Virus record (IMG/VR): IMGVR_UViG_3300020472_000125
Span: 1 to 28,698 of that record
Strand: one strand, 5' to 3'
From: a virus
DNA length: 28,698 nucleotides
Made by a program: the position numbers and the translations under genes. Below, piece after piece: positions 4,483 to 27,200 of this stretch (its first letter is position 1; each line of letters opens with the position of its first letter). The notes below the pieces were generated by a model, which made no database searches, was not told the DNA's origin, and saw only the letters and a program-made list of their open reading frames with translations.

Positions 4483-4764
4483 CTAGTGGATTTCTACTAA
4501 ATCAAATAGGTTTAGTTTGAAGTCGTAATTGTTATAGCCTGAACGGCCTTTGATCCGCACCATATCTTCTATTGGGTCAGTTGTTTTTCTCCAACTTTTG
4601 TAATTTTGGACTGACCGAACAGTAAAGCAGGTTTCTTCTACTGTAATAACATCACCGACTTCGACGAAGCAGGCTTCAGTTTCGCCTATCCGCCAGTAGG
4701 GTGTTTCTTCTTTGCAACAGTTTTCCATGTTGTCCCTTTCTTGGTTTGTTTTGTATAACTCCAT
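4483..4764 (-). CDS. MEL-leader cassette protein (unknown function)
   Basis: No function is recognised. The chosen start, ATG 4764, begins MELYKTNQERDNM and lies 7 bp after a TAGAGT -10 box, so it should be at or next to the mRNA 5' end. A second in-frame ATG at residue 13 (MENCCKEE) follows a GAAAGGG Shine-Dalgarno and could give a shorter form. An apparent upstream ATG at 4806 lies in promoter DNA and is rejected. The body has a Cys-Cys pair, then VGDVITVEETCFTVRSVQNYKSW, a small beta-barrel pattern seen in other cassette proteins. It is divergent from the gene at 4874. Confidence 0.7.
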   Translation of the reverse strand: MELYKTNQERDNMENCCKEETPYWRIGETEACFVEVGDVITVEETCFTVRSVQNYKSWRKTTDPIEDMVRIKGRSGYNNYDFKLNLFDLVEIH

Positions 4765-4800
4765 GTTGGTTACTCTACGGCCTTTTTTCCTGTCTGTAAA
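4765..4800 (-). promoter_or_regulatory. MEL-module leaderless promoter (copy 1)
   Basis: Minus strand: TTTACA (4800-4795), 17 bp spacer starting GACAGGA, TAGAGT (4777-4772), 7 bp, ATGGAGTT. GGGG precedes the -35 box. It is divergent from the copy at 4839-4873. Confidence 0.82.
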
Positions 4801-4838
4801 CCCCATTTAGTATTTATTCAGTAGAAATAACAATGGGG

Positions 4839-4873
4839 TTTACATACCGGGAATGGTCTTATAGAGTCAAAAT
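4839..4873 (+). promoter_or_regulatory. MEL-module leaderless promoter (copy 2), early operon
   Basis: TTTACA (4839-4844), 17 bp spacer starting TACCGGG, TAGAGT (4862-4867), 6 bp, ATGGAGTT at 4874. TGGGG precedes the -35 box. It is the only strong promoter seen upstream of the long plus-strand operon. Confidence 0.82.
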
Positions 4874-5209
4874 ATGGAGTTAAACAACCAAGAAGGAGAA
4901 ACAATGATTACTACAGATCATTCGTTGGAGTCGTTTCTGCTCGAACATAAAAGTGATGAATGGCATCACGGTGAGGTGCAGGAATTGCTACTCATCTTAA
5001 TCAGGGAAGATAAAAAATTTCACCTTGATGATTCACCATTTGATATTTACGACTATGACGAGAAGAAACCAGTATTCACACCCATAGAAGCATTGATGCT
5101 AAATCAGGCGTTAGGCGAAATTATAGAATGCGGTATAGATATTTGGCTTCAGTTTGATATCAACCACGACCTGTCCAAACACTGGTTTGGTCCCCCCGGT
5201 ATCAATTAA
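4874..5209 (+). CDS. MEL-leader protein, first gene of the early operon (unknown function)
   Basis: An acidic 111-residue protein, not recognised. The MELNNQEGETM leader begins 6 bp after the -10 box. A second in-frame ATG at residue 11 (MITTDHS) follows AGAAGGAGAAA, a good Shine-Dalgarno. The body is mostly helical with an Asp/Glu-rich middle (DDSPFDIYDYDEKKP). It ends FGPPGIN, where the Pro-Pro-Gly codons coincide with a copy of the CCGGGGGG motif (complement strand). It leads the plus-strand operon and could be an early host-directed protein, but that is only inferred from its position. Confidence 0.7.
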   Translation: MELNNQEGETMITTDHSLESFLLEHKSDEWHHGEVQELLLILIREDKKFHLDDSPFDIYDYDEKKPVFTPIEALMLNQALGEIIECGIDIWLQFDINHDLSKHWFGPPGIN

Positions 5210-9222: not shown

Positions 9223-10101
9223 ATGGAGTTGAATAAAACCATGAAAGTAGGAGCGCTTTGCGCAGGATACGGCGGCATTGAACTTGGGCTTTCTCAAGTG
9301 CTTGATGTCGAGTTAGCTTGGCATAGCGAAATTGACAAACATGCAAACAAAGTTATGGACCATAGATTTGGCACGCCGAATCTTGGCGACTTAACTCAAA
9401 TAGATTCTCCAGAACAAGTAGACATAGTTACGGCTGGCTTTCCTTGTCAGCCATTTTCTATAGCAGGAAACAGGAAAGGAACAGAAGATGAAAGATGGCT
9501 CATTGATACCGTTTGCGAAATTGCAGCTAAAGCGAAAGCAAAATGGCTCATTCTTGAAAACGTCAAAGGACTGCTTACCGCTAACAACAGAATCGCTCTT
9601 GCCCGAGTTGCTGAAGCAATGGCGCTTAACGGTTTCACACGATGGGAGTGGACAACTTTACCAGCGAGCGACATCGGTGCGCCCCACCGTAGAGAACGAT
9701 GGTTTTGCGTTGCTGCCAACCCCAGTGAAAACGCAAGGGCGAAGCCTTACTTCAGGAATGGCAAAGGGTACCGGGAGGAAAAAAGGAAGCACTGGACAGC
9801 TAAAAACGACATTAAACGATTTAGTTTTTCTGGATCGTCTTTTGAACAATATCAACCAACAATCGACAGATGGGCAAACATTATCGGTAGACCAGCTCCA
9901 GACCCATATCAAAACTACAGGCTCAATAAGTGGTTTGTTGAATGGATGATGGGACTCCCGGAGGGACACGTTTGCGGTGACGATTTGGAAATTCCGACTA
10001 CTTACGCATTGAACCTTATGGGCAATGGGGTAGTTCCCCAACAGGCTTCCGCAGCTCTTAAATTCTTATTTGAAAATCTAATGAGGCAAACATGCAGGTA
10101 G
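9223..10101 (+). CDS. DNA cytosine-C5 methyltransferase 1
   Basis: The enzyme transfers a methyl group from S-adenosylmethionine to C5 of cytosine in a specific DNA site. Motif I is LCAGYGGIELGL, motif IV is GFPCQPFS with the catalytic Cys (about residue 75), motif VI is LILENV, motif VIII-like is GAPHRRERWF, and motifs IX-X are RWANIIGRPAP, VEWMMGLPEG and NLMGNGVVPQQ. Length 292 is short but complete, with a compact target-recognition region. The first codons (MELNKTM) are a shortened MEL leader; ATG 9241 is the alternative start. It is about as similar to the next gene as recent paralogues would be. Target sequence unknown. Confidence 0.92.
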   Translation: MELNKTMKVGALCAGYGGIELGLSQVLDVELAWHSEIDKHANKVMDHRFGTPNLGDLTQIDSPEQVDIVTAGFPCQPFSIAGNRKGTEDERWLIDTVCEIAAKAKAKWLILENVKGLLTANNRIALARVAEAMALNGFTRWEWTTLPASDIGAPHRRERWFCVAANPSENARAKPYFRNGKGYREEKRKHWTAKNDIKRFSFSGSSFEQYQPTIDRWANIIGRPAPDPYQNYRLNKWFVEWMMGLPEGHVCGDDLEIPTTYALNLMGNGVVPQQASAALKFLFENLMRQTCR

Positions 10102-11021
10102 GAGCGCTTTGCGCAGGTTATGGAGGGCTTGAACTAGGTTTATCTTCCCTCATTGATACTGACCTTAAATGGTTCAGTGAAATAGAAACGCATCCTATTA
10201 ATGTTATGCAAACCCATTTTGATGTACCGAATTTAGGCGATCTAACGCAAATAACAAACCCACCTGAAGTAGATATTGTTACCGCAGGGTTTCCTTGCCA
10301 ACCAGTATCAAATGCAGGTCAGAAAAAAGGAGTAGAAGATGAAAGATGGCTCATTGAGGATGTTTGCAGAGTTGCCCGGCTTGCAAACGCAAAATGGCTC
10401 ATCCTCGAAAACGTTTCAGCAATTCTTGCCACTGGCGATGGATACCCTATGGCCCGAGTGTGTGCGGAATTGGCCCGACACGGTTTCAGCAGATGGGAGT
10501 GGCAACTTGTACGAGCGAGTGATGTCGGAGCTTGCCACAGACGAGAGCGGTGGTTCTGCGTTGCTGCACACACCAGTAGCGAGAGAGGGAGCGATAGGCT
10601 ATCCCGAACGTTTCGACAACCGCAACAGCAACGGAGGGACCCGGTACCGTTTAGCGGATCAACTAGCGTCATTAGAGATGAAGTATCTTCCGACACCGCT
10701 GGCTTCAGATGCGAAACATCACGGACCGAACATGGATTGGGAGAAGCGGAAGAATCACATATCTTCGGTGAGTTCGGTCCTTATGAACTTGCAGTTAGAA
10801 GATGGGCGGACATCATCGGTAGACCACCACCAAGAGCAACAATCAACACTGGAGTGAACCCACCGTTTGTTGAATGGATGATGGGACTTCCGGGAGGGTG
10901 GGTATCTGACATTGTTCCATCAACTAGCGCTCAATTAAAAATGTATGGCAACGGTGTCGTTCCGCAGCAAGCTGCATACGCAATGAAAACGTTAATAGAA
11001 AGATTAGATGATGCTAACTGA
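10092..11021 (+). CDS. DNA cytosine-C5 methyltransferase 2 (tandem paralogue)
   Basis: The 309 residues share the motif order of gene 9223: LCAGYGGLELGL, GFPCQPVSNAG with the catalytic Cys, LILENV, ASDVGACHRRERWF, RRWADIIGRPPP, VEWMMGLPGGWV and KMYGNGVVPQQ. It starts inside the last codons of gene 9223 (10 bp overlap), so it probably arose by tandem duplication and the two are co-translated. The region between ERWF and the RRWAD block differs from gene 9223, as expected if target specificity diverged. In the +1 frame the same DNA reads TPVAREG and LPTPLASDAKHHGPN, sequence typical of this family's spacer; see findings. Confidence 0.92.
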   Translation: MQVGALCAGYGGLELGLSSLIDTDLKWFSEIETHPINVMQTHFDVPNLGDLTQITNPPEVDIVTAGFPCQPVSNAGQKKGVEDERWLIEDVCRVARLANAKWLILENVSAILATGDGYPMARVCAELARHGFSRWEWQLVRASDVGACHRRERWFCVAAHTSSERGSDRLSRTFRQPQQQRRDPVPFSGSTSVIRDEVSSDTAGFRCETSRTEHGLGEAEESHIFGEFGPYELAVRRWADIIGRPPPRATINTGVNPPFVEWMMGLPGGWVSDIVPSTSAQLKMYGNGVVPQQAAYAMKTLIERLDDAN

Positions 11022-11187
11022 ATTTGATGAATGGCTAAACCGGGGAATAGAAAAAGGTTGGGTAACTCCACCGTATTGCAATGCACATGAGTTTCATCAC
11101 CCAAACGACAGCGATGAATTCCAAGAATTGTATGCAGAATACGGAGGGATAGATTTTTGTTGGCGAGTGTTAAGGATATATGACTGA
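11011..11187 (+). CDS. Small 58-residue protein (unknown function)
   Basis: ATG 11011 lies just inside the end of the second C5 methylase and the TGA stop at 11185-11187 shares a base with the next ATG. The product is MLTEFDEWLNRGIEKGWVTP, then PYCNAHEF and ELYAEYGGIDFCWRVLRIYD. Small phage proteins with the pattern 'FD-WL--GI--GWVT-P-C--H' are common in actinophage early regions and have no known function. Perfect overlap with both neighbours supports the gene. Confidence 0.65.
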   Translation: MLTEFDEWLNRGIEKGWVTPPYCNAHEFHHPNDSDEFQELYAEYGGIDFCWRVLRIYD

Positions 11188-11900
11188 TGTTGCCGTTTTA
11201 TTCAGATGATAATTGCATAATATATAACGATGATTGCCTATCAATTATGCCGCTATTGTGGACAGGCGGCTACGAAGAATTTGATTTGCTGTTTTTAGAT
11301 GCACCCTTTCAGATATACAAAGACTTTCAAAAAGAGGATTTTCCAGAAACTAAAACCGTAGTAGCGTTTACTAATTCCTCAAATGTTCATTATTTGTATG
11401 AGCTGTTTGGCAAACCACGTTTTGAACTTATTTGGAAAATGGGGAACAGCAACGCCCGGTGGACAACCCATTACGGTCCGCTAACGGTACATGAAACTAT
11501 TTTAGTATGGGGTGAAACAGGTGAAGCCTATGTTGGTGAATATAATACTGACCGAACACCACGAAAAATAGGAAGCAACATTGGAAGCGGAGAAGGTCGT
11601 TTAAGCGGTCATAAAATATACACGCCTAGAGAAAGAAAAATGATTTACTCTGTTCTCGATTATCCCCAAGATGGCGGCAATGCTTCAAACGGCATGGGAA
11701 GGATGGGGAAGCCATTAAAACTAATGGAGATATTACTTGAATGGGTAAACCCAAAAACAATACTTGATCCGTTTATGGGTTCAGGAACCACTTTGGAAGC
11801 CTCCCGGAATCTAGGAATGCACACAATAGGTATAGAAAAAGAATTAGATTATTGTGAACTAGCAAAAACCAGATTAGCCCAACAAAGGTTAGAAATATGA
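11187..11900 (+). CDS. DNA N4/N6 (amino) methyltransferase with altered motif IV
   Basis: The 237 residues show a permuted beta-type amino-methyltransferase. Motif IV comes first (LLFLDAPFQIY, about residue 37), with Asp-Ala-Pro-Phe in place of the usual Asp-Pro-Pro-Phe/Tyr. Motif I follows near the C-terminus (ILDPFMGSGTTLEASRNLGMHTIGIE), where S-adenosylmethionine binds. SDDNCIIYNDDCLSIMPLL at the start is typical of the family. Pro to Ala in motif IV could lower or change activity. It follows the two C5 methylases in one operon and overlaps both neighbours by 1-4 bp. Confidence 0.88.
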   Translation: MLPFYSDDNCIIYNDDCLSIMPLLWTGGYEEFDLLFLDAPFQIYKDFQKEDFPETKTVVAFTNSSNVHYLYELFGKPRFELIWKMGNSNARWTTHYGPLTVHETILVWGETGEAYVGEYNTDRTPRKIGSNIGSGEGRLSGHKIYTPRERKMIYSVLDYPQDGGNASNGMGRMGKPLKLMEILLEWVNPKTILDPFMGSGTTLEASRNLGMHTIGIEKELDYCELAKTRLAQQRLEI

Positions 11901-14152: not shown

Positions 14153-14418
14153 TCTTGTTCTGTCCTTCCGTCTATTGCGGTTAGTGATATTTGCCAGTTT
14201 TTTTCAATACCGGGCACCATTCCGATTGTTTCGGTTGGTCGGCGGTAAGGCTCAAAAACTGTTCCTTGTGCTTCTATTAGTTCTGATACTGCTGATTCAG
14301 CGAGTGATCGGGCTTGGTCTGCATCTTCAGCTTCGACCTCTAAATCACCTTCAAATTCAACAGTAACGGTTACTGTGTATTTCATTTGGTTTCCCTTCTT
14401 GGTTTTTGTTAACTCCAT
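14149..14418 (-). CDS. MEL-leader cassette protein (unknown function)
   Basis: The leaderless start ATG 14418 gives MELTKTKKGNQM; the second ATG at residue 12 (MKYTVTVTVEFEGDLEVEAEDADQARSLAESAVSEL) follows AAGAAGGGAAACC. The body from MKYTV looks like a small ferredoxin-like alpha/beta domain: a strand, an acidic hairpin and an Ala-rich helix. 'KYTVTVTVEFEGDLEVEAEDADQA' resembles small phage proteins of unknown function. An upstream ATG at 14460 lies in promoter DNA. It is divergent from gene 14539. Confidence 0.7.
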   Translation of the reverse strand: MELTKTKKGNQMKYTVTVTVEFEGDLEVEAEDADQARSLAESAVSELIEAQGTVFEPYRRPTETIGMVPGIEKNWQISLTAIDGRTEQE

Positions 14419-14454
14419 ATTGATGACTTTACGGCCTTCTTCTTTATTTGTAAA
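14419..14454 (-). promoter_or_regulatory. MEL-module leaderless promoter (copy 3)
   Basis: Minus strand: TTTACA (14454-14449), 17 bp spacer, TAAAGT (14431-14426), 7 bp, ATGGAGTT at 14418. TGGGG precedes the -35 box. It is divergent from the copy at 14504-14538. Confidence 0.82.
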
Positions 14455-14477
14455 CCCCATTTAACATAAACTCTAGA

Positions 14478-14492: not shown

Positions 14493-14503
14493 GCTGAAAT
14501 ATG

Positions 14504-14538
14504 TTTACAAAGGTGGGTTATACTTGTAGAGTTAAATT
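14504..14538 (+). promoter_or_regulatory. MEL-module leaderless promoter (copy 4)
   Basis: TTTACA (14504-14509), 17 bp spacer starting AAGGTGG, TAGAGT (14527-14532), 6 bp, ATGGAGTT at 14539. The TGGGG block usually seen before the -35 box is absent here. Confidence 0.8.
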
Positions 14539-14760
14539 ATGGAGTTCAAACCAAGAAAGGACAACATGAGTTGTACTAAAGAAATAATAGAAGCACGCCA
14601 CCTAAAAAGTGGCGACTGCTTTACACACGATGGAGAAGTATTTTGGTTCATCAGCGCTCAAGGACATAATGATGTTTGGGTTGAAGATTACGAAGGGGAC
14701 AGAGTTTTTTTGTTTCTACCAAATACTGAAAAAGTTGAAGTAGAAAGAATCCAACGGTGA
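14539..14760 (+). CDS. MEL-leader small beta protein (unknown function)
   Basis: 73 residues starting MEFKPRKDNM; the second ATG at residue 10 (MSCTKEIIEA) follows AAGAAAGGACAAC. The body RHLKSGDCFTHDGEVFWFISAQGHNDVWVEDYEGDRVFLFLPNTEKVEVERI is strand after strand, with a Lys-Ser-Gly-Asp start like a small beta-barrel. It resembles in outline genes 4220, 4483 and 14757. The function is unknown. The stop overlaps the next GTG start by 4 bp. Confidence 0.7.
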   Translation: MEFKPRKDNMSCTKEIIEARHLKSGDCFTHDGEVFWFISAQGHNDVWVEDYEGDRVFLFLPNTEKVEVERIQR

Positions 14761-15623: not shown

Positions 15624-15914
15624 ATGAATGACAAACCAATAAATAGAGAAAAGCAAAAGCAGGCGCACCAGCTCTGTACAAACCTTGCACCCTATTCGTG
15701 GAATGAATTTGCTAAATCGCTAGTTGAATTTTTCAACGAACGAGGGTTTTTAACTGATAAGCAAATGGATGCCGGGGAAAGAATGTTGCGAAAAGCAAAA
15801 GAAAACAAATGGAGTGAAGGCAATCCACCATTAGCAGTCATTCCCATTGTTGGTCAGGATTTAGAAGAAACAACTTCTGAACCCATATCAATCGAAGTTG
15901 AAGATCCTTTTTAG
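15624..15914 (+). CDS. Hypothetical phage protein, 96 residues
   Basis: It starts MNDKPINREKQKQAHQLCTN and contains WNEFAKSLVEFFNERGFLTDKQMDAGERMLRKAKENK, a helical block ('W--F--SL--F---G-LTDKQ---A-RM') common in phage proteins near recombination or DNA-binding genes. The acidic C-terminus (EETTSEPISIEVEDPF) is similar in style to single-strand-binding partners. AAAGGAGATAATT precedes the ATG. It is the last gene of the operon and converges on whiB with a 4 bp overlap of the ends. Confidence 0.62.
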   Translation: MNDKPINREKQKQAHQLCTNLAPYSWNEFAKSLVEFFNERGFLTDKQMDAGERMLRKAKENKWSEGNPPLAVIPIVGQDLEETTSEPISIEVEDPF

Positions 15915-16150
15915 ACCTTCCCGGAAGGACAGGAACTTAGTAACTTCATTCGTTCATGTTCACGCAAGCCGCCCCAAATACCAAATTCGATCCTGTTTGT
16001 TAATGAATACTCTAAACATTCATTTCTAACATTACATTTTCTGCAAATCTGCATCGGCTTAGAAAGCGTCGCATGGCTTCGATTCATCGGAAACCAAATA
16101 GATGTATCTGATCCCCGGCAGGCGGCATTGCTGAACCAATTTTGATCTAT
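15911..16150 (-). CDS. whiB: WhiB-family Fe-S transcription regulator with no canonical start
   Basis: WhiB proteins carry a [4Fe-4S] cluster and bind sigma factor; they are confined to actinobacteria and their phages. The minus-strand frame reads IDQNWFSNAACRGSDTSIWFP, then MQICRKCNVRNECLEYSL and FGIWGGLREHERMKLL. The four cluster cysteines (AACRG, CRKC, ECL) and the GIWGG turn are all present. No ATG, GTG, TTG or CTG exists in frame between an upstream TAA and the first Cys. The coordinate given is ATA 16150, which overlaps the preceding TAG (ATAG). Alternatively a -1 shift at the heptamer 16159-16153 fuses it to gene 16147. The first ATG would remove the first Cys. Confidence 0.8.
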   Translation of the reverse strand: MDQNWFSNAACRGSDTSIWFPMNRSHATLSKPMQICRKCNVRNECLEYSLTNRIEFGIWGGLREHERMKLLSSCPSGKV

Positions 16151-16470
16151 TTCTTTTTTGCTTTTGGGGCTGGCTTCTTTGCTGGCGCTTTTTTCGCTGC
16201 TGGTTTTTTCGCTGCTGGTTTTTTCGCAGGTGCTTTTTTCTTAGCTGCTGGTTTGGCGGCAAGCTTTTCCCACGTTGCTTCATCGACGTAACCCAAAATA
16301 TCTAATCCGTTGTCGCTCTGAAAACGTGCAACGGCACGGTCAGTACCGATAGCGTATCGGCCATCGATAAAAATAGAAGCGCCATGTTCGTTTAACAGTG
16401 CTTGCAAATGCCGTACTGCGTGGGTGTTTGAATTGTTAGTTATTGAAAGAGGTGGTTTTCCTATATCCAT
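16147..16470 (-). CDS. Peptidoglycan-binding-domain protein with Lys/Ala/Pro-rich tail
   Basis: The 107 residues start with a PG_binding_1-like domain: HAVRHLQALLNEHGASIFIDGRYAIGTDRAVARFQSDNGLDILGYVDEATWEKL (about residues 17-70), a three-helix module that binds cell-wall glycan peptides. The last 35 residues are almost only Lys, Ala and Pro in repeats such as AKKPAAKKPAAKKAPAKK, like histone H1 tails. There is no signal peptide and no catalytic domain. It follows the holin gene, so it probably helps lysis, perhaps by targeting the wall or polyanions. The reading frame ends AAA-AAG-AAA-TAG, where the slippery heptamer lies. Confidence 0.75.
   Translation of the reverse strand: MDIGKPPLSITNNSNTHAVRHLQALLNEHGASIFIDGRYAIGTDRAVARFQSDNGLDILGYVDEATWEKLAAKPAAKKKAPAKKPAAKKPAAKKAPAKKPAPKAKKK
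16153..16159 (-). other. Candidate -1 ribosomal frameshift heptamer A-AAA-AAG
   Basis: Minus-strand bases 16159-16153 read A AAA AAG in the frame of gene 16147, two codons before its TAG. Slipping back one base continues GAA ATA GAT CAA AAT TGG straight into the WhiB frame. A AAA AAG is the classic bacterial -1 slip site. No strong downstream stem was found by eye. Confidence 0.45.
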
Positions 16471-16478
16471 TTAATATC

Positions 16479-16754
16479 CTATTCGTAGAGTTGTTCGTCT
16501 GCATCTTCTGGGAGGTCTGGAAGTTGCTTTACGATTGATGCAGTAGCGTCGCCGATTGGTGCCATCGTACAAAACGCTCCTTTTAAGACACTTATAGCTG
16601 CCGGGAGTCCTCCGATAGCTGCCATTTTTAGTGTGCTAATTCCACCCATATCTACTCCCATTCCTGAAGCTGTCAGAAGCCCAAGAAAAGATTGAACGTA
16701 AGTGAAGATTGCTCGTTCTAAAATGTCTTTAATTTGATCTAAGTTAAGTCTCAT
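16479..16754 (-). CDS. Holin (r1t-like)
   Basis: The 91 residues start MRLNLDQIKDILERAIFTYVQSFLGLLTASGMGVDMGGISTLKMAAIGGLPAAISVLKGAF. One hydrophobic helix (about 15-30) and a second (about 44-60) are joined by a short Gly-rich loop. The 'ERA--TF-Q-F---L' opening and 'A---G-PAA-SVLK' second helix match r1t-type holins of actinophages. Holins form the membrane holes that release or activate endolysin. It lies between the endolysin and the peptidoglycan-binding gene, in one minus-strand operon. Confidence 0.8.
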   Translation of the reverse strand: MRLNLDQIKDILERAIFTYVQSFLGLLTASGMGVDMGGISTLKMAAIGGLPAAISVLKGAFCTMAPIGDATASIVKQLPDLPEDADEQLYE

Positions 16755-16763
16755 ATTTGTCTC

Positions 16764-17516
16764 CTATTTGAGTAGCATAGCCCAAGTGTTGCGACCTACT
16801 ACGCCGTCGATTACTAAACCGTTAGCACGCTGATAGGCTCTAACCGCTTTTTCGGTCTTTCTTCCCCAAATGCCATCTGGAAAACCGCACTTGTACCCTT
16901 TAGCAGCTAGACGTTCCTGAACAACTTTAACTGCTGAGTTGCGGCTACCTTTTCTTAACGGCCTCCGGGAGACTTGTTCTCCTAGTTGCGCTAAAGCTGC
17001 TGCTACTCCTTTAAGGTTTACTTTGGCTTTTTTAACGGTTTTGGATTCAGATTTCTCACCTTTCATTGCCGGGGCTTGAAAAATGCCTTTACTGTTTCGC
17101 CATTGATAATGCCATGCTTCATATTGTGGACTGAAAACGGTTTGGCAAACACCGTATTCTTTTGCTATCGGAACGAACTTCGCCCACGTTAAACCACCAG
17201 ACAAGCGTATATCTACGGCGTGCCCGTAGTTGTCGAACGGTTGCTGCATGTGCCACGAGCCTTGAAACAAGCCCCCTCCAAATTTGCGGTGAGGGTTAGC
17301 TGCAAGATTAAAATGCGAATAGCCTGCTTTTCCTTTGAGTTTGTTCTGGTAGCCGTCCCAAAAATACTTCTGGTCAGCAAAACTTCTTACCCCTGAGACG
17401 ATACGTGCTCGAGATGCGATCTCTGGTTCAGTATTTAACAATGCTTCTAAACGAGCCTTAAAGGTCGGATGTAAAAGATCTACACGGACATGCTTACTAG
17501 TCGTTGGCAAAACCAT
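16764..17516 (-). CDS. Endolysin: M15 D,L-peptidase plus peptidoglycan-binding domain
   Basis: The 250 residues have two parts. Residues ~1-150 are a VanY/M15-like zinc peptidase: VSGVRSFADQKYFWDGY, SWHMQQPFDNYGHAVDIRL and EAWHYQWRN, giving His, Asp and His as zinc ligands. Residues ~185-250 form a PG_binding_1 repeat: LRKGSRNSAVKVVQERLAAKG...FPDGIWGRKTEKAVRAYQRANGL. A Lys-rich linker (KSESKTVKKAKVNLK) joins them. It should cut peptide stems of host peptidoglycan. There is no signal peptide, so it needs the holin. ATG 17516 lies 6 bp after TAATGT, a likely leaderless start. Confidence 0.9.
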   Translation of the reverse strand: MVLPTTSKHVRVDLLHPTFKARLEALLNTEPEIASRARIVSGVRSFADQKYFWDGYQNKLKGKAGYSHFNLAANPHRKFGGGLFQGSWHMQQPFDNYGHAVDIRLSGGLTWAKFVPIAKEYGVCQTVFSPQYEAWHYQWRNSKGIFQAPAMKGEKSESKTVKKAKVNLKGVAAALAQLGEQVSRRPLRKGSRNSAVKVVQERLAAKGYKCGFPDGIWGRKTEKAVRAYQRANGLVIDGVVGRNTWAMLLK

Positions 17517-18806: not shown

Positions 18807-18834
18807 GCTGAAACAAACATTTTGTTAAATGGGC

Positions 18835-18869
18835 TTTACATACCGGGCCCCATACCGTATCTTGTCTCT
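18835..18869 (+). promoter_or_regulatory. MEL-module leaderless promoter (copy 6)
   Basis: TTTACA (18835-18840), 17 bp spacer starting TACCGGG, TATCTT (18858-18863), 6 bp, ATGGAGTT at 18870. It is divergent from the copy at 18772-18806. Confidence 0.82.
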
Positions 18870-19106
18870 ATGGAGTTAAACCAAACCAAGAAAGGAAACC
18901 AAATGTTAATCAATTGGCGTAAACAAGGCCTAAAAATTGGGCAAAGGGTGGGGAGTACAGATGAGTTTCAAAAAATCTGCATCAACCTTCAGTCAGCTTA
19001 CGGAGTTATCTTAGACGGAGCGAGTGATTACAGAAGCCAAGAAGGCACCGCATGTAATGCCTTCTGGTCTGGATTTCACGAAGGGCGCAACCTTACACAC
19101 CTTTAA
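18870..19106 (+). CDS. MEL-leader small protein (unknown function)
   Basis: 78 residues from the leaderless ATG 18870 (MELNQTKKGNQM). The second ATG (18903, MLINWRKQGLKIGQRVG) follows AAGAAAGGAAACC. The body is not recognised; it has FQKICINLQSAYGVILDGASDYRSQEGTACNAFWSGFHEGRN. An ATG at 18822 lies upstream of the promoter and is rejected. The gene stands alone between its promoter and a hairpin terminator, typical of a moron. Confidence 0.7.
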   Translation: MELNQTKKGNQMLINWRKQGLKIGQRVGSTDEFQKICINLQSAYGVILDGASDYRSQEGTACNAFWSGFHEGRNLTHL

Positions 19107-19782: not shown

Positions 19783-19954
19783 GCCGCTCTTGCCAATCTT
19801 CAATCGCCACCCCAAGCAAGTGAGACGCTAAGGCGACAATAGATATGTATATTCCTTTTTTTAATGTGCTACCGCTCAAAGTGATAAGAACTAATAAAGT
19901 TCCTCCAATCGTGAGCGATAGAAACAGTATTTCTTTGCTTAATCTTTTAATCAT
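19775..19954 (-). CDS. Small two-helix membrane protein (lysis accessory candidate)
   Basis: The 59 residues [20 protein letters not shown] continue [14 protein letters not shown] and [25 protein letters not shown]. Two hydrophobic helices (about 10-27 and 35-51) with a Lys-rich turn make a hairpin membrane protein. The ATG overlaps the stop of the large secreted-protein gene by 8 bp, and its own stop overlaps the second holin start. Position suggests an antiholin or holin partner; the function is inferred. Confidence 0.68.
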
Positions 19955-21665
19955 TCATTTTCCTTCCTCGCCGACTTTGCGATGGTCCACCTGAAGCATC
20001 TGTGCTACCTCCGGGAGACGCAGTTGCGCTAGGTCCGCTAGTCCGTGTTGGTTGTATTGGTCCTGTTGCCGGGGATGGCGGTGCTGGTCTGACAGCTATA
20101 GCCGTTGCTGAAACTACAGCGGTTGCCGCCACGACGGTACGCCTTTCTTCTATGGTTATTGTTTGCCCATCTGCTTGGTAATCTTCAAAGCCACCAGCAA
20201 AGACATTTACAGTTTCTTCAAATGTGCTTTTAGTTTCTGAATCAGCTTCATTAAATATCTCGGCGTTTTCTTCAAACAATTCTTCAAGTTGCTCATCGCT
20301 TGCCTGTTCAAAAAATTCCTCATTATCTTCAAGGATTTCTTCTAACACATCATCAGCTTCTAAATCTTCAATAAGCTGCTCAAGCTGTTCCTCATCTTCC
20401 AGCAAATCTTCTATATCAACTTCTTCCAATTCAAGGTCTGGGTCATCTTCCCATTCCCCGGTTTCTTCATCGAAATAGATATCTTCTTCGTTCGGCGGTC
20501 CTTCTTCCCAGTCGTCTATGAATTCTTCATCAAGCCCTTCAGGAATTTCATCAATCGAACCCCCCGGGAAGTTCTCAAATTCTTCTTCTTCTGTCTCAAC
20601 CGTTTCTTCAAATTCTTCTTCGCTACCTTCTGTGTCGAAAGCGGAGTTGTCTGTTTCCTCATATTGCTCAAATTCATCAAAATCATCCTCATTTATCTCT
20701 GGCAAATCATCTTCAATAACTACGATAGGTTCGCCGTCATTTATATCTGCATCTAAATCCCAATCAAAGTCATCCCAGTCAATATCATCTACTTCTCCCC
20801 AGTCAATATCATCAATAATGATAGGCTCTGGAGATGGTATGGGTTCAGGTGTCGGTATTAATAGTGGCGGTGGTGTTGGGTCTGGCGGTTGCGGTGTCGG
20901 AGTTGGAGGAATAGGTGAAGGTGTTGGCAACGGTTCAGGTGAAGGTGTTGGACTCGGTGTCGGTGACGGTGTTGGTGTTGGATTTGGGGGAGGCACTTCG
21001 TCAGGAGTTGGTGTCGGCTCTGGTTCAGGAGTTGGGGTTGGGACCGGGGTTGGAGTCGGTTGAGGTGTCGGTGACGGAGTTGGTTCTGGCGTAGGTGTAG
21101 GAGGGACAGGCGTTGGGGTTGGTTCAGGAGTAGGAGTAGGAGTAGGAGTAGGTTCTTCTGGTACTGTCCAAGCCCCTCCAGAAACTTCTAATGTATATGT
21201 GCCTATGTAGTCAGTGTCGAAAGCATCAGCTCTTAATTGGTAGACTCCCGGAGATAGAACTGTGTCTATTTCTGAATCCCAACACATATTAGAACCATCA
21301 TTGTGGCTAGCTGAATCGTCATCATCTGTTATTAAAGTTAAAACTTCTTCACCGTCTACTTCTGTTACTGAATAAAGCCAAATGTGCGGATCTGCTGCAT
21401 AGGCGTGAGGGGCATCATCCCAATCATCGCAGGTCATGGAGGTGAAGGTGATGGCGTTTACTGGGGTTTGTTCTTCGGTAATTTCAAATGTAAATGAGGG
21501 CCCGGCACCAAAGGTATTCACCCAAATAGTACATCTATAACCATCAACTATTGTTTCGCAAGTTGTTTCAGTAGCATAGGCAGGCGGAGCAATCCAAGCA
21601 ACAAGCAGTACAAGCACTAAACATGAACGGCTTAATATCTTCAGTAAACGAGTGGCAGCTCTCAT
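19947..21665 (-). CDS. Large secreted protein with Thr-Pro and acidic low-complexity regions
   Basis: The 572 residues begin with a signal peptide (basic [13 protein letters not shown], hydrophobic [16 protein letters not shown]). Residues ~32-163 are a beta-rich domain with four Cys, ending [27 protein letters not shown], similar to PPC-type secreted domains. Residues ~165-280 are Thr-Pro/Glu-Pro/Ser-Pro repeats like a mucin stalk. Residues ~280-505 are extremely Asp/Glu-rich. A hydrophobic stretch ([17 protein letters not shown]) near 520 may anchor it, followed by a Ser/Gly/Pro/Arg tail. No catalytic motif is seen. It heads the operon of holins and SNase with a leaderless-type promoter. 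Confidence 0.8.
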
Positions 21666-21701: not shown

Positions 21702-21717
21702 TAGCGTATGGGGCATA

Positions 21718-21747
21718 AAGAAACCCCCACCGAAGTGGGGGCTTCTT
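21718..21747 (-). terminator. Hairpin terminator of gene 21757
   Basis: On the minus strand CCCCCAC pairs with GTGGGGG around TTCG, with flanking AAGAAG and TTTCTTT. It separates the MEL cassette at 21757 from the lysis operon promoter. Confidence 0.85.
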
Positions 21748-21756
21748 CCTCCTTTA

Positions 21757-22026
21757 TTATTTTTGAATAGTTTGACCTATATTTTTGAACCGATAGATTT
21801 TGTCTCGGTGAGATCTGATTACTGTTGGAAGTATGTCTGAGCCGCCTATTCGGATTACCCACCCTTCTCCAGTTGATGTTTTTTCATATCTGCTAACAGT
21901 ACCCTCAACTAATTTAATGTTTTTTGGGTCTGTATGATCTTCAACTAATACAGCTTGACCTATGTAGAGGTCTTTGTCGTCAGTCATGTTTTGCCTTTCT
22001 TGGTTTGGTTTATTGGTTAACTCCAT
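21757..22026 (-). CDS. MEL-leader small beta protein (unknown function)
   Basis: The 89 residues begin MELTNKPNQERQNM, 7 bp after a TAGAGT -10 box. The second ATG at residue 14 (MTDDKDLYIGQAVLVEDH) follows AAGAAAGGCAAAAC. The body (LYIGQAVLVEDHTDPKNIKLVEGTVSRYEKTSTGEGWVIRIGG) is strand-rich like a KOW or SH3-type barrel. The leader peptide is nearly identical to that of gene 26595, although the bodies are unrelated, so the leader is conserved as a unit. It is the minus half of the 22.0 kb cassette. Confidence 0.72.
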   Translation of the reverse strand: MELTNKPNQERQNMTDDKDLYIGQAVLVEDHTDPKNIKLVEGTVSRYEKTSTGEGWVIRIGGSDILPTVIRSHRDKIYRFKNIGQTIQK

Positions 22027-22062
22027 ATTGATTACTCTACAAGTTGTTCATCTGTCTGTAAA
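22027..22062 (-). promoter_or_regulatory. MEL-module leaderless promoter (copy 7)
   Basis: Minus strand: TTTACA (22062-22057), 17 bp spacer starting GACAGAT, TAGAGT (22039-22034), 7 bp, ATGGAGTT at 22026. GGGG precedes the -35 box. Confidence 0.82.
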
Positions 22063-22090
22063 CCCCACTTATATAAATATCTGAATAAGG

Positions 22091-22125
22091 TTTACATACC
22101 GGGCATGAACTTGTATCTTCAAAAT
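22091..22125 (+). promoter_or_regulatory. MEL-module leaderless promoter (copy 8)
   Basis: TTTACA (22091-22096), 17 bp spacer starting TACCGGG, TATCTT (22114-22119), 6 bp, ATGGAGTT at 22126. It is divergent from copy 7. Confidence 0.82.
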
Positions 22126-22365
22126 ATGGAGTTACATAAAAAACCAAAAGGAGATAAATCCATGAAAGTGACAAGTATAAGATATTTTGAGACTTCCCGG
22201 GGGGTTGGCTACGAAGCCAAAACCAAAGAAGGGAGTATCTGGAACGATGGAGATGGTGGTCCAACCTACTTCAGGGGCAACACACCAGAAACTCACAGAG
22301 AATTTTGTCGAGTAGACGAATTTGAACTGGAAGCGTTTATAGATACTTTTGAAAACGTAAAATAA
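22126..22365 (+). CDS. MEL-leader small protein (unknown function)
   Basis: 79 residues from ATG 22126 (MELHKKPKGDKSM). The second in-frame ATG at 22162 (MKVTSIRYFETSRGVGYEAKT) follows AAAGGAGATAAATCC. The body reads FETSRGVGYEAKTKEGSIWNDGDGGPTYF, strands with a Gly/Asp turn, then a helical acidic end (EFELEAFIDTFENVK). Not recognised. Its TSRGVG codons coincide with a copy of the CCGGGGGG motif, read in a different frame from other copies. It stands alone between promoter and terminator. Confidence 0.7.
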   Translation: MELHKKPKGDKSMKVTSIRYFETSRGVGYEAKTKEGSIWNDGDGGPTYFRGNTPETHREFCRVDEFELEAFIDTFENVK

Positions 22366-26530: not shown

Positions 26531-26558
26531 GATGGTTAAAACAAACTACTAAGTGGAG

Positions 26559-26594
26559 TTTACATACCGGGCACCAACTTGTATTGTCTTAAAT
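26559..26594 (+). promoter_or_regulatory. MEL-module leaderless promoter (copy 9)
   Basis: TTTACA (26559-26564), 17 bp spacer starting TACCGGG, TATTGT (26582-26587), 7 bp, ATGGAGTT at 26595. TGGAG precedes the -35 box in place of TGGGG. Confidence 0.82.
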
Positions 26595-26987
26595 ATGGAG
26601 TTAACAAAAAAACCAAACCAAGAAAGGCATAACATGTCAGACCAAGATAAAAGCTGGGCTTACTCCGATGTCCTAATCGACCTAGATGAAGCATCTGCGG
26701 TTTACGGCGACCAAGTAATGAAATCCGTAGAAGCAAAGTTTCAAGGGGCTCGAGTTCAGCATATAGCAGTAGAACATATCCGAACTGAAACAATAGACGG
26801 ACTTACTCAGGTGGTAGGAGATATCGTCGGTACTCAATACTTTGAAACTGGAAGCGATACTGCATTTATAGTAGCTGAATCATTCACATTTACACCAAAC
26901 AAAAATTACAAAGGCATTCCCGGTCAGGTCGCCCAATACCAAGAGCGATACTGGGCAAAGGTAGATCCTTCACTCGTCTGGGGATAA
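26595..26987 (+). CDS. MEL-leader protein (unknown function), moron within the structural block
   Basis: 130 residues from ATG 26595 (MELTKKPNQERHNM); the second ATG at residue 14 (MSDQDKSWAYSDVLID) follows AAGAAAGGCATAAC. The body is not recognised: DEASAVYGDQVMKSVEAKFQGARVQHIAVEHIRTETIDGLTQVVGDIVGTQYFETGSDTAFIVAESFTFTP. It has mixed helix and strand, with no signal or membrane helix. It is the only plus-strand gene in the structural block and is bounded by hairpins at 26491 and 26997. Its leader is nearly the same as that of gene 21757. Confidence 0.72.
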   Translation: MELTKKPNQERHNMSDQDKSWAYSDVLIDLDEASAVYGDQVMKSVEAKFQGARVQHIAVEHIRTETIDGLTQVVGDIVGTQYFETGSDTAFIVAESFTFTPNKNYKGIPGQVAQYQERYWAKVDPSLVWG

Positions 26988-26996
26988 GGGAACCTA

Positions 26997-27024
26997 AAAG
27001 CCCCCACTTCGGTGGGGGTTTTTT
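26997..27024 (+). terminator. UUCG-loop terminator after gene 26595
   Basis: AGCCCCCAC pairs with GTGGGGGTT (seven strong pairs plus two) around TTCG, followed by a T-run. It lies just before the end of the minus-strand gene 27030. Confidence 0.9.
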
Positions 27025-27029
27025 AGTGC

Positions 27030-27200
27030 CTAAACTGCTTTCACCGCACCTGTTTTCAATACATCTGATACTTGAGAGCTGTTGGCTTCAAACCGATCAC
27101 CAAACTGTAGTTGGGAATCACCAAGCAGCAGACCAACCTCAAATGTGTTTAATGTTTGATTAAAATACAAATGATTGCAATTAACTAGATAAGTCGGCAT
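27030..27200 (-). CDS. Small protein downstream of the tail-fibre genes (56 residues)
   Basis: ATG 27200 lies inside the end of gene 27181 and TAG is at 27032-27030. The product is MPTYLVNCNHLYFNQTLNTF, then EVGLLLGDSQLQFGDRFEANSSQVSDVLKTGAVKAV. It is beta-like and soluble. The 20 bp overlap with gene 27181 fits a translationally coupled operon. The function is unknown; it could be a small virion or fibre-assembly protein. Confidence 0.55.
   Translation of the reverse strand: MPTYLVNCNHLYFNQTLNTFEVGLLLGDSQLQFGDRFEANSSQVSDVLKTGAVKAV

Follow-up and report, generated by a model that had tools for sequence, protein, structure and literature searches.

A phage whiB gene without a start codon, probably read by −1 ribosomal frameshifting from a peptidoglycan-binding gene of the lysis cassette

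The whiB gene of the viral DNA analysed here is very likely expressed solely through programmed −1 ribosomal frameshifting, as the C-terminal portion of a fusion with the protein encoded directly upstream, a peptidoglycan-binding domain (PGBD) followed by a Lys/Ala/Pro-rich (KAP) tail. A −1 slip producing this three-part chain had been put forward in the original prediction. Comparison with related viruses strongly supports it, because ten lineages share a WhiB frame in constant −1 phase with no usable start, the class of slippery heptamer is conserved, and purifying selection acts on the WhiB protein. The window, i.e. the whole stretch of DNA that was analysed, is a 28.7-kb virus record from IMG/VR in which the lysis cassette and the WhiB frame are located on the minus strand (Table 1).

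In a Pfam search the WhiB frame of the window matched the Whib family (PF02467) across the entire domain (profile positions 1-65 of 65) with 74-75 bits, the cut-off being 23.6. The four cysteines and the GxWGG turn were conserved in every lineage included in an alignment of WhiB homologs. Wbl proteins characteristically bind region 4 of the main σ factor as well as a 4Fe-4S cluster. The frame is in −1 phase relative to the preceding PGBD gene. Translation of positions 15911-16291 of the minus strand revealed an in-frame TAA which closes the WhiB frame upstream, and a productive slip must therefore fall downstream of it. As neither ATG, GTG, TTG nor CTG occurs between this TAA and the first cluster cysteine, the claim that a complete WhiB frame lacks a normal start codon was borne out. 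The mechanical ORF call for the window WhiB comprises only 58 amino acids and begins after the first cysteine. An internal ATG at 16087 was rejected as start since it is located downstream of the first cysteine and is not conserved. When same-strand neighbor pairs of the window in −1 phase were inspected at minimal lengths of at least 70 and at least 50 codons, the PGBD/whiB pair was the sole one that combined a missing start with a strict heptamer.

Table 1. Positions of the features discussed (window coordinates unless a contig is named).
Feature	Location	Strand	Remarks
Endolysin with C-terminal PG_binding_1, first gene of the cassette	16764..17516	−	PF01471, 64.8 bits
Holin-like protein	16479..16754	−	Weak Phage_r1t_holin match, 22.6 bits, below Pfam cut-off (26.9)
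Zero-frame PGBD-KAP gene, 107 aa	16147..16470	−	PF01471, 42.2 bits (cut-off 23)
PG_binding_1 domain of PGBD-KAP gene	about 16261-16419	−	
KAP tail of PGBD-KAP gene	about 16150-16260	−	
In-frame TAA, upstream limit of WhiB frame	16241-16243	−	Translation of 15911-16291
Proposed slip heptamer C_CCA_AAA	16162..16168	−	In phase (GCC CCA AAA GCA), 12 nt before zero-frame stop
Heptamer A_AAA_AAG, possible secondary slip site	16153..16159	−	In phase, 3 nt before stop; window and L002 only
Zero-frame stop TAG of PGBD-KAP gene	16147-16149	−	End reads ...GCC CCA AAA GCA AAA AAG AAA TAG
ATA overlapping TAG, alternative start of the original prediction	16148..16150	−	Homologous codon ATA in 4/10, GTA in 6/10 lineages
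WhiB part after the proposed slip, SKKEIDQNW...WhiB...SGKV	15911..16162	−	83 aa, stop 15911-15913; translation and Pfam
Pfam Whib domain	15941-16138	−	Within −1-frame part of predicted fusion
Tail-chaperone pair, G_GGA_AAA	L165:13683-14233	+	−1 overlap, 16 nt
Tail-chaperone pair, G_GGA_AAA	L169:290-879	+	−1 overlap, 16 nt
Tail-chaperone pair, G_GGA_AAA	L166, offset 10318 of reverse complement	−	−1 overlap
Dispersed repeat copies	4832-4887, 14497-14552, 18828-18883, 22084-22139, 26552-26607	+	
Dispersed repeat copies	4745-4809, 14399-14463, 22007-22071	other strand	

The product of the zero-frame gene scored above the Pfam cut-off for PG_binding_1 (PF01471), and its homologs share 54-94% identity in the PGBD domain. 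This gene is kept in all nine lineages for which upstream sequence is available; the contig of L002 ends too early. Homologs of the endolysin (40-92% identity) are encoded upstream of the PGBD gene in L003, L005, L006, L015, L070, L072, L090 and L101, and the order endolysin, holin, PGBD-KAP, whiB is common to eight lineages (the window and seven others). In L101 the lysin and PGBD genes are kept but no match to this holin was detectable. A single origin of the cassette was not resolved by a tree. On the same strand, upstream of the lysis cassette (19947-21665), the window encodes a 572-aa protein whose N-terminus is signal-like and which contains acidic stretches besides a long PTPTP(E)-repeat; ORFs resembling it in size and N-terminus are present in L164, L167 and L169.

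Among further features of the window, copies of a repeat (GTTTACATACCGGG...ATATGGAGTTAA; about 56-65 nt) are dispersed over both strands, where they directly precede many small genes and, at the beginning of small ORFs starting with MEL, resemble a common promoter or leader. Two similar cytosine-DNA-methyltransferase-like genes are arranged in tandem (9223-10101 and 10092-11021), with DNA repeats of 70-97% identity at a spacing of 851-932 nt, and are followed by another methyltransferase-like ORF (11187-11900). A strong, terminator-like hairpin (CCCCCACCGAAGTGGGGG) is present in two near-identical copies of opposite orientation (21712-21744 and 26998-27030).

Relatives of the cassette were sought in viral contigs with WhiB, the PGBD and alignments of both as queries. 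Ten lineages were obtained: (i) the window; (ii) L002; (iii) L003; (iv) L005/L022; (v) L006/L020; (vi) L015; (vii) L063/L090; (viii) L070/L071; (ix) L072/L073; (x) L101. As they share ancestry, counts of lineages are not independent. In all ten, the KAP tail is followed by an overlapping WhiB frame in −1 phase that has no usable start of its own. TTG codons in the WhiB frame of L015 lie only deep within the region coding for PGBD and tail, and an ATG in that of L072/L073 only deep within the PGBD coding region, in both cases upstream of the slip site. The comparison with related phages that had been suggested as a check of the original prediction thus gave the same phase throughout and a normal ATG in none. 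In a survey of 111 distinct phage WhiB proteins, a start was missing within 45 codons of the first cysteine in ten KAP-tailed WhiBs and in two others, namely L042, where the contig ends within the gene, and L041, whose WhiB has a long N-terminus; the two remaining KAP-tailed WhiBs are those of L072/L073 with the ATG mentioned above. Stand-alone phage WhiBs begin at ATG, GTG or TTG.

Between lineages, pS of the WhiB frame ranged from 0.82 to 0.93 (synonymous sites saturated) and pN from 0.22 to 0.37; in two close pairs, each differing by few changes, omega was 0.28 and 0.11. These values show purifying selection on the WhiB frame. All these records, some of which are fragments, contain a single WhiB, and hence no second whiB in them could do the work. 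A scan of genome_contigs for cellular or prophage copies with the PGBD alignment returned only weak, partial peptidoglycan-binding matches in unrelated taxa. In a collection of cultured phages, WhiB and PGBD relatives were less than 60% identical, and the PGBD matches listed were mostly endolysins.

A −1 slip is productive between the last stop in the −1 frame and the zero-frame stop, an overlap of only 28-49 nt in L002, L003, L063 and L101. Within this overlap all ten lineages have a strict X_XXY_YYZ heptamer in zero-frame phase: C_CCA_AAA in four (window, L002, L005, L015), G_GGA_AAA in five (L003, L006, L063, L070, L072), and A_AAA_AAA, in a run of seven A, in L101 only. C_CCA_AAA or G_GGA_AAA is thus located at a Pro-Lys/Gly-Lys site in nine of the ten. 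Although the PGBD domains of L003 and the window share 94% identity, G_GGA_AAA replaces C_CCA_AAA in L003 and the slippery pattern is kept. The zero-frame stop follows 9-18 nt past the heptamer in most lineages, and 69 nt past it in L015. The chance of finding any strict heptamer in a Lys-rich tail, multiplied over lineages, is about 0.03 and hence weak evidence, and improbability was therefore not claimed for strict heptamers in general. Only a non-A heptamer is improbable, with a product of chances of about 4e-8 upon synonymous redraw, a value which exaggerates the significance, as the lineages are related.

C_CCA_AAA is a second in-phase heptamer of the window that had been missing from the original prediction, which placed the slip at A_AAA_AAG near the stop of the preceding gene. 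The latter heptamer is indeed present in phase and is strict; it is that of Escherichia coli dnaX (PMC5009743). Use of A_AAA_AAG in the window by the same −1 mechanism, alone or additionally, is a variant which overlaps with the best explanation and predicts the fusion peptide ...PAPKAKKEIDQNW. It is rather unlikely, since A_AAA_AAG recurs only in L002 and is missing in eight of ten lineages whereas nine have C_CCA_AAA or G_GGA_AAA; it is probably not the main slip site, and as a general one it did not hold. Slipping on the upstream C_CCA_AAA would yield the peptide ...PAPKSKKEIDQNW.

Tail-assembly chaperones, the best-known case of conserved −1 frameshifting in tailed phages, served as a positive control. 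In three phages (larger contigs of L063, L006 and L002), G_GGA_AAA is present at the −1 overlap of the gene pair directly preceding the tape-measure gene (Table 1), which suggests that this slip site is used in the same hosts. For TM4, GGGAAAA is cited as the site of frameshifting (PMC4626039), and a report on Microbacterium phage Bush gives it for the tail chaperones (PMC11749239). On the basis of sequence comparison, we interpret the whiB case as another programmed frameshift of these phages, beside that of the tail chaperones.

Pseudoknot-free folding did not reveal a conserved 3' stem or other common structure across lineages. The z values of 3' folding ranged from +1.1 to −4.3, with strong stems only in L063 (−4.3) and L101 (−3.5) and nothing significant in the window (0.4 to −1.6). 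With regard to an upstream Shine-Dalgarno-like stimulator, a purine-rich AAGAAGG just before the heptamer is present in five lineages and absent from the window. The nearby zero-frame stop or the upstream AAGAAGG may, as a conjecture, play a part in slipping.

Alternatively, ribosomes finishing at TAG or TAA might restart on the overlapping ATA (window) or GTA (other lineages) and produce free WhiB. In each lineage four to seven codons separate the stop from the conserved Trp downstream, so that the stop falls roughly at the position expected for a WhiB start. An ordinary ATGA overlap would likewise give −1 phase, and most other −1 neighbors in the window start normally, overlapping or nearby. 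Such reinitiation is nevertheless improbable: the codon is not conserved (ATA in four, GTA in six lineages) and is simply what a TAR stop yields in the −1 frame; TAA lineages are one A-to-G change away from GTGA, a combined stop and start, which was never observed; and the shared heptamer is left unexplained. GTA is not known to act as an effective start codon. Initiation at ATA, the second option of the original prediction, is accordingly not supported; its overlap with TAG was correct, and its distance to the Trp is four codons instead of five.

Still less probable is slippage of RNA polymerase on A-runs, by which bases would be inserted or deleted in some mRNA and the fusion made without a ribosomal slip. 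The tail is A-rich, with seven consecutive A in L101 and six in the window and L002, but in five lineages there is only GGGAAAAG, whose three G and four A form runs too short for ordinary polymerase slippage, and strict heptamers in codon phase are a ribosomal signature. A sequencing or assembly error in the A-run, named in the original prediction as what could overturn it, or a decaying whiB pseudogene would fit metagenomic contigs with an A-rich site but has next to no probability, because ten diverged viruses keep the arrangement in the same phase and without a start, L006/L020 and L070/L071 are identical across different samples, and WhiB is under purifying selection.

According to the proposed frameshift mechanism, most ribosomes translating the late PGBD-KAP gene would stop at TAG and release the 107-aa protein, while a fraction, on C_CCA_AAA or on the G_GGA_AAA of relatives, would slip back by one base and read on into whiB. 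The predicted fusion of the window comprises about 186 amino acids with PG-binding domain, basic KAP tail and WhiB Fe-S domain. We infer the ribosome rather than the polymerase as slipping agent, and likewise the efficiency of the slip and its role. The major product would combine a PG-binding domain with a basic tail, the minor one would carry WhiB in addition, and a fixed low ratio of the two would provide a small amount of late regulator per translation of the lysis operon.

The C-terminus following WGG is shorter in WhiBs of this group than in others (median 12.5 versus 32 aa; p=2e-5) and contains four instead of eight Lys and Arg residues; in many stand-alone WhiBs this segment is basic. 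Because of the shortened C-terminus, the Lys-rich tail is proposed as a substitute DNA contact. It is conceivable, as a tentative reading of the sequences, that the recoded lysis protein is also a regulator which combines PG-binding, a histone-like basic tail replacing the C-terminal DNA-binding segment of WhiB, and Fe-S WhiB, and whose dose, and perhaps place, is set by translation of the lysis-operon mRNA. Phage WhiB, namely that of TM4, is reported to block superinfection and septation, as cited in PMC10202952. A late, low and fixed dose of WhiB might be one way in which such effects are used.

Phages with this cassette infect actinobacteria. Programmed −1 frameshifting is already known as a class of mechanism. 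As far as literature searches show, a frameshift that makes WhiB fused to a PG-binding protein of the lysis cassette is undescribed; no paper combining WhiB, a fusion protein and ribosomal frameshifting was found. If the proposal is true, (i) a second conserved frameshift of the same phages, located in the lysis cassette, delivers a transcription regulator; (ii) in phages of actinobacteria, a WhiB-type Fe-S regulator is coupled to the late translation of lysis genes; and (iii) it is explained why the WhiB gene is dropped or truncated by ordinary gene callers.

PGBD-KAP genes without whiB (L049, L074, L007, L011) likewise encode PG_binding_1 with a KAP tail beside a holin-like gene. Their −1 neighbor, however, is a holin-like gene with its own start and not WhiB, and no Pro-Lys/Gly-Lys slip site was found near the end of the tail. 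In L049 (3001-3614) and L074 (3001-3557), where the holin-like neighbor has a normal ATG, the ordinary counterpart of the whiB arrangement is seen. E. coli dnaX resembles the proposed case in −1 frameshifting on a heptamer, and A_AAA_AAG is the same sequence; yet this heptamer is not conserved in the whiB group, and the predicted product is a longer fusion whereas that of dnaX is a truncation. With phage WhiB-like proteins such as that of mycobacteriophage TM4, the group shares a phage-encoded, complete Wbl domain with four Cys and GxWGG. Unlike stand-alone phage WhiBs, it has no start of its own, a short C-terminus and, as proposed, a recoded N-terminal PGBD with Lys-rich tail. The closest parallel in mechanism is provided by the tail chaperones of dsDNA phages (lambda G/GT, TM4), where a short upstream gene has an X_XXA_AAR site for the −1 slip close to its end, from which a longer fusion is made. 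The G_GGA_AAA of TM4, also present at the tail-chaperone overlap of three of the phages studied here, is identical to that of whiB cassette lineages. In contrast to the tail chaperones, the whiB case is located in the lysis cassette and would join a peptidoglycan-binding protein to a transcription regulator instead of two tail-assembly parts.
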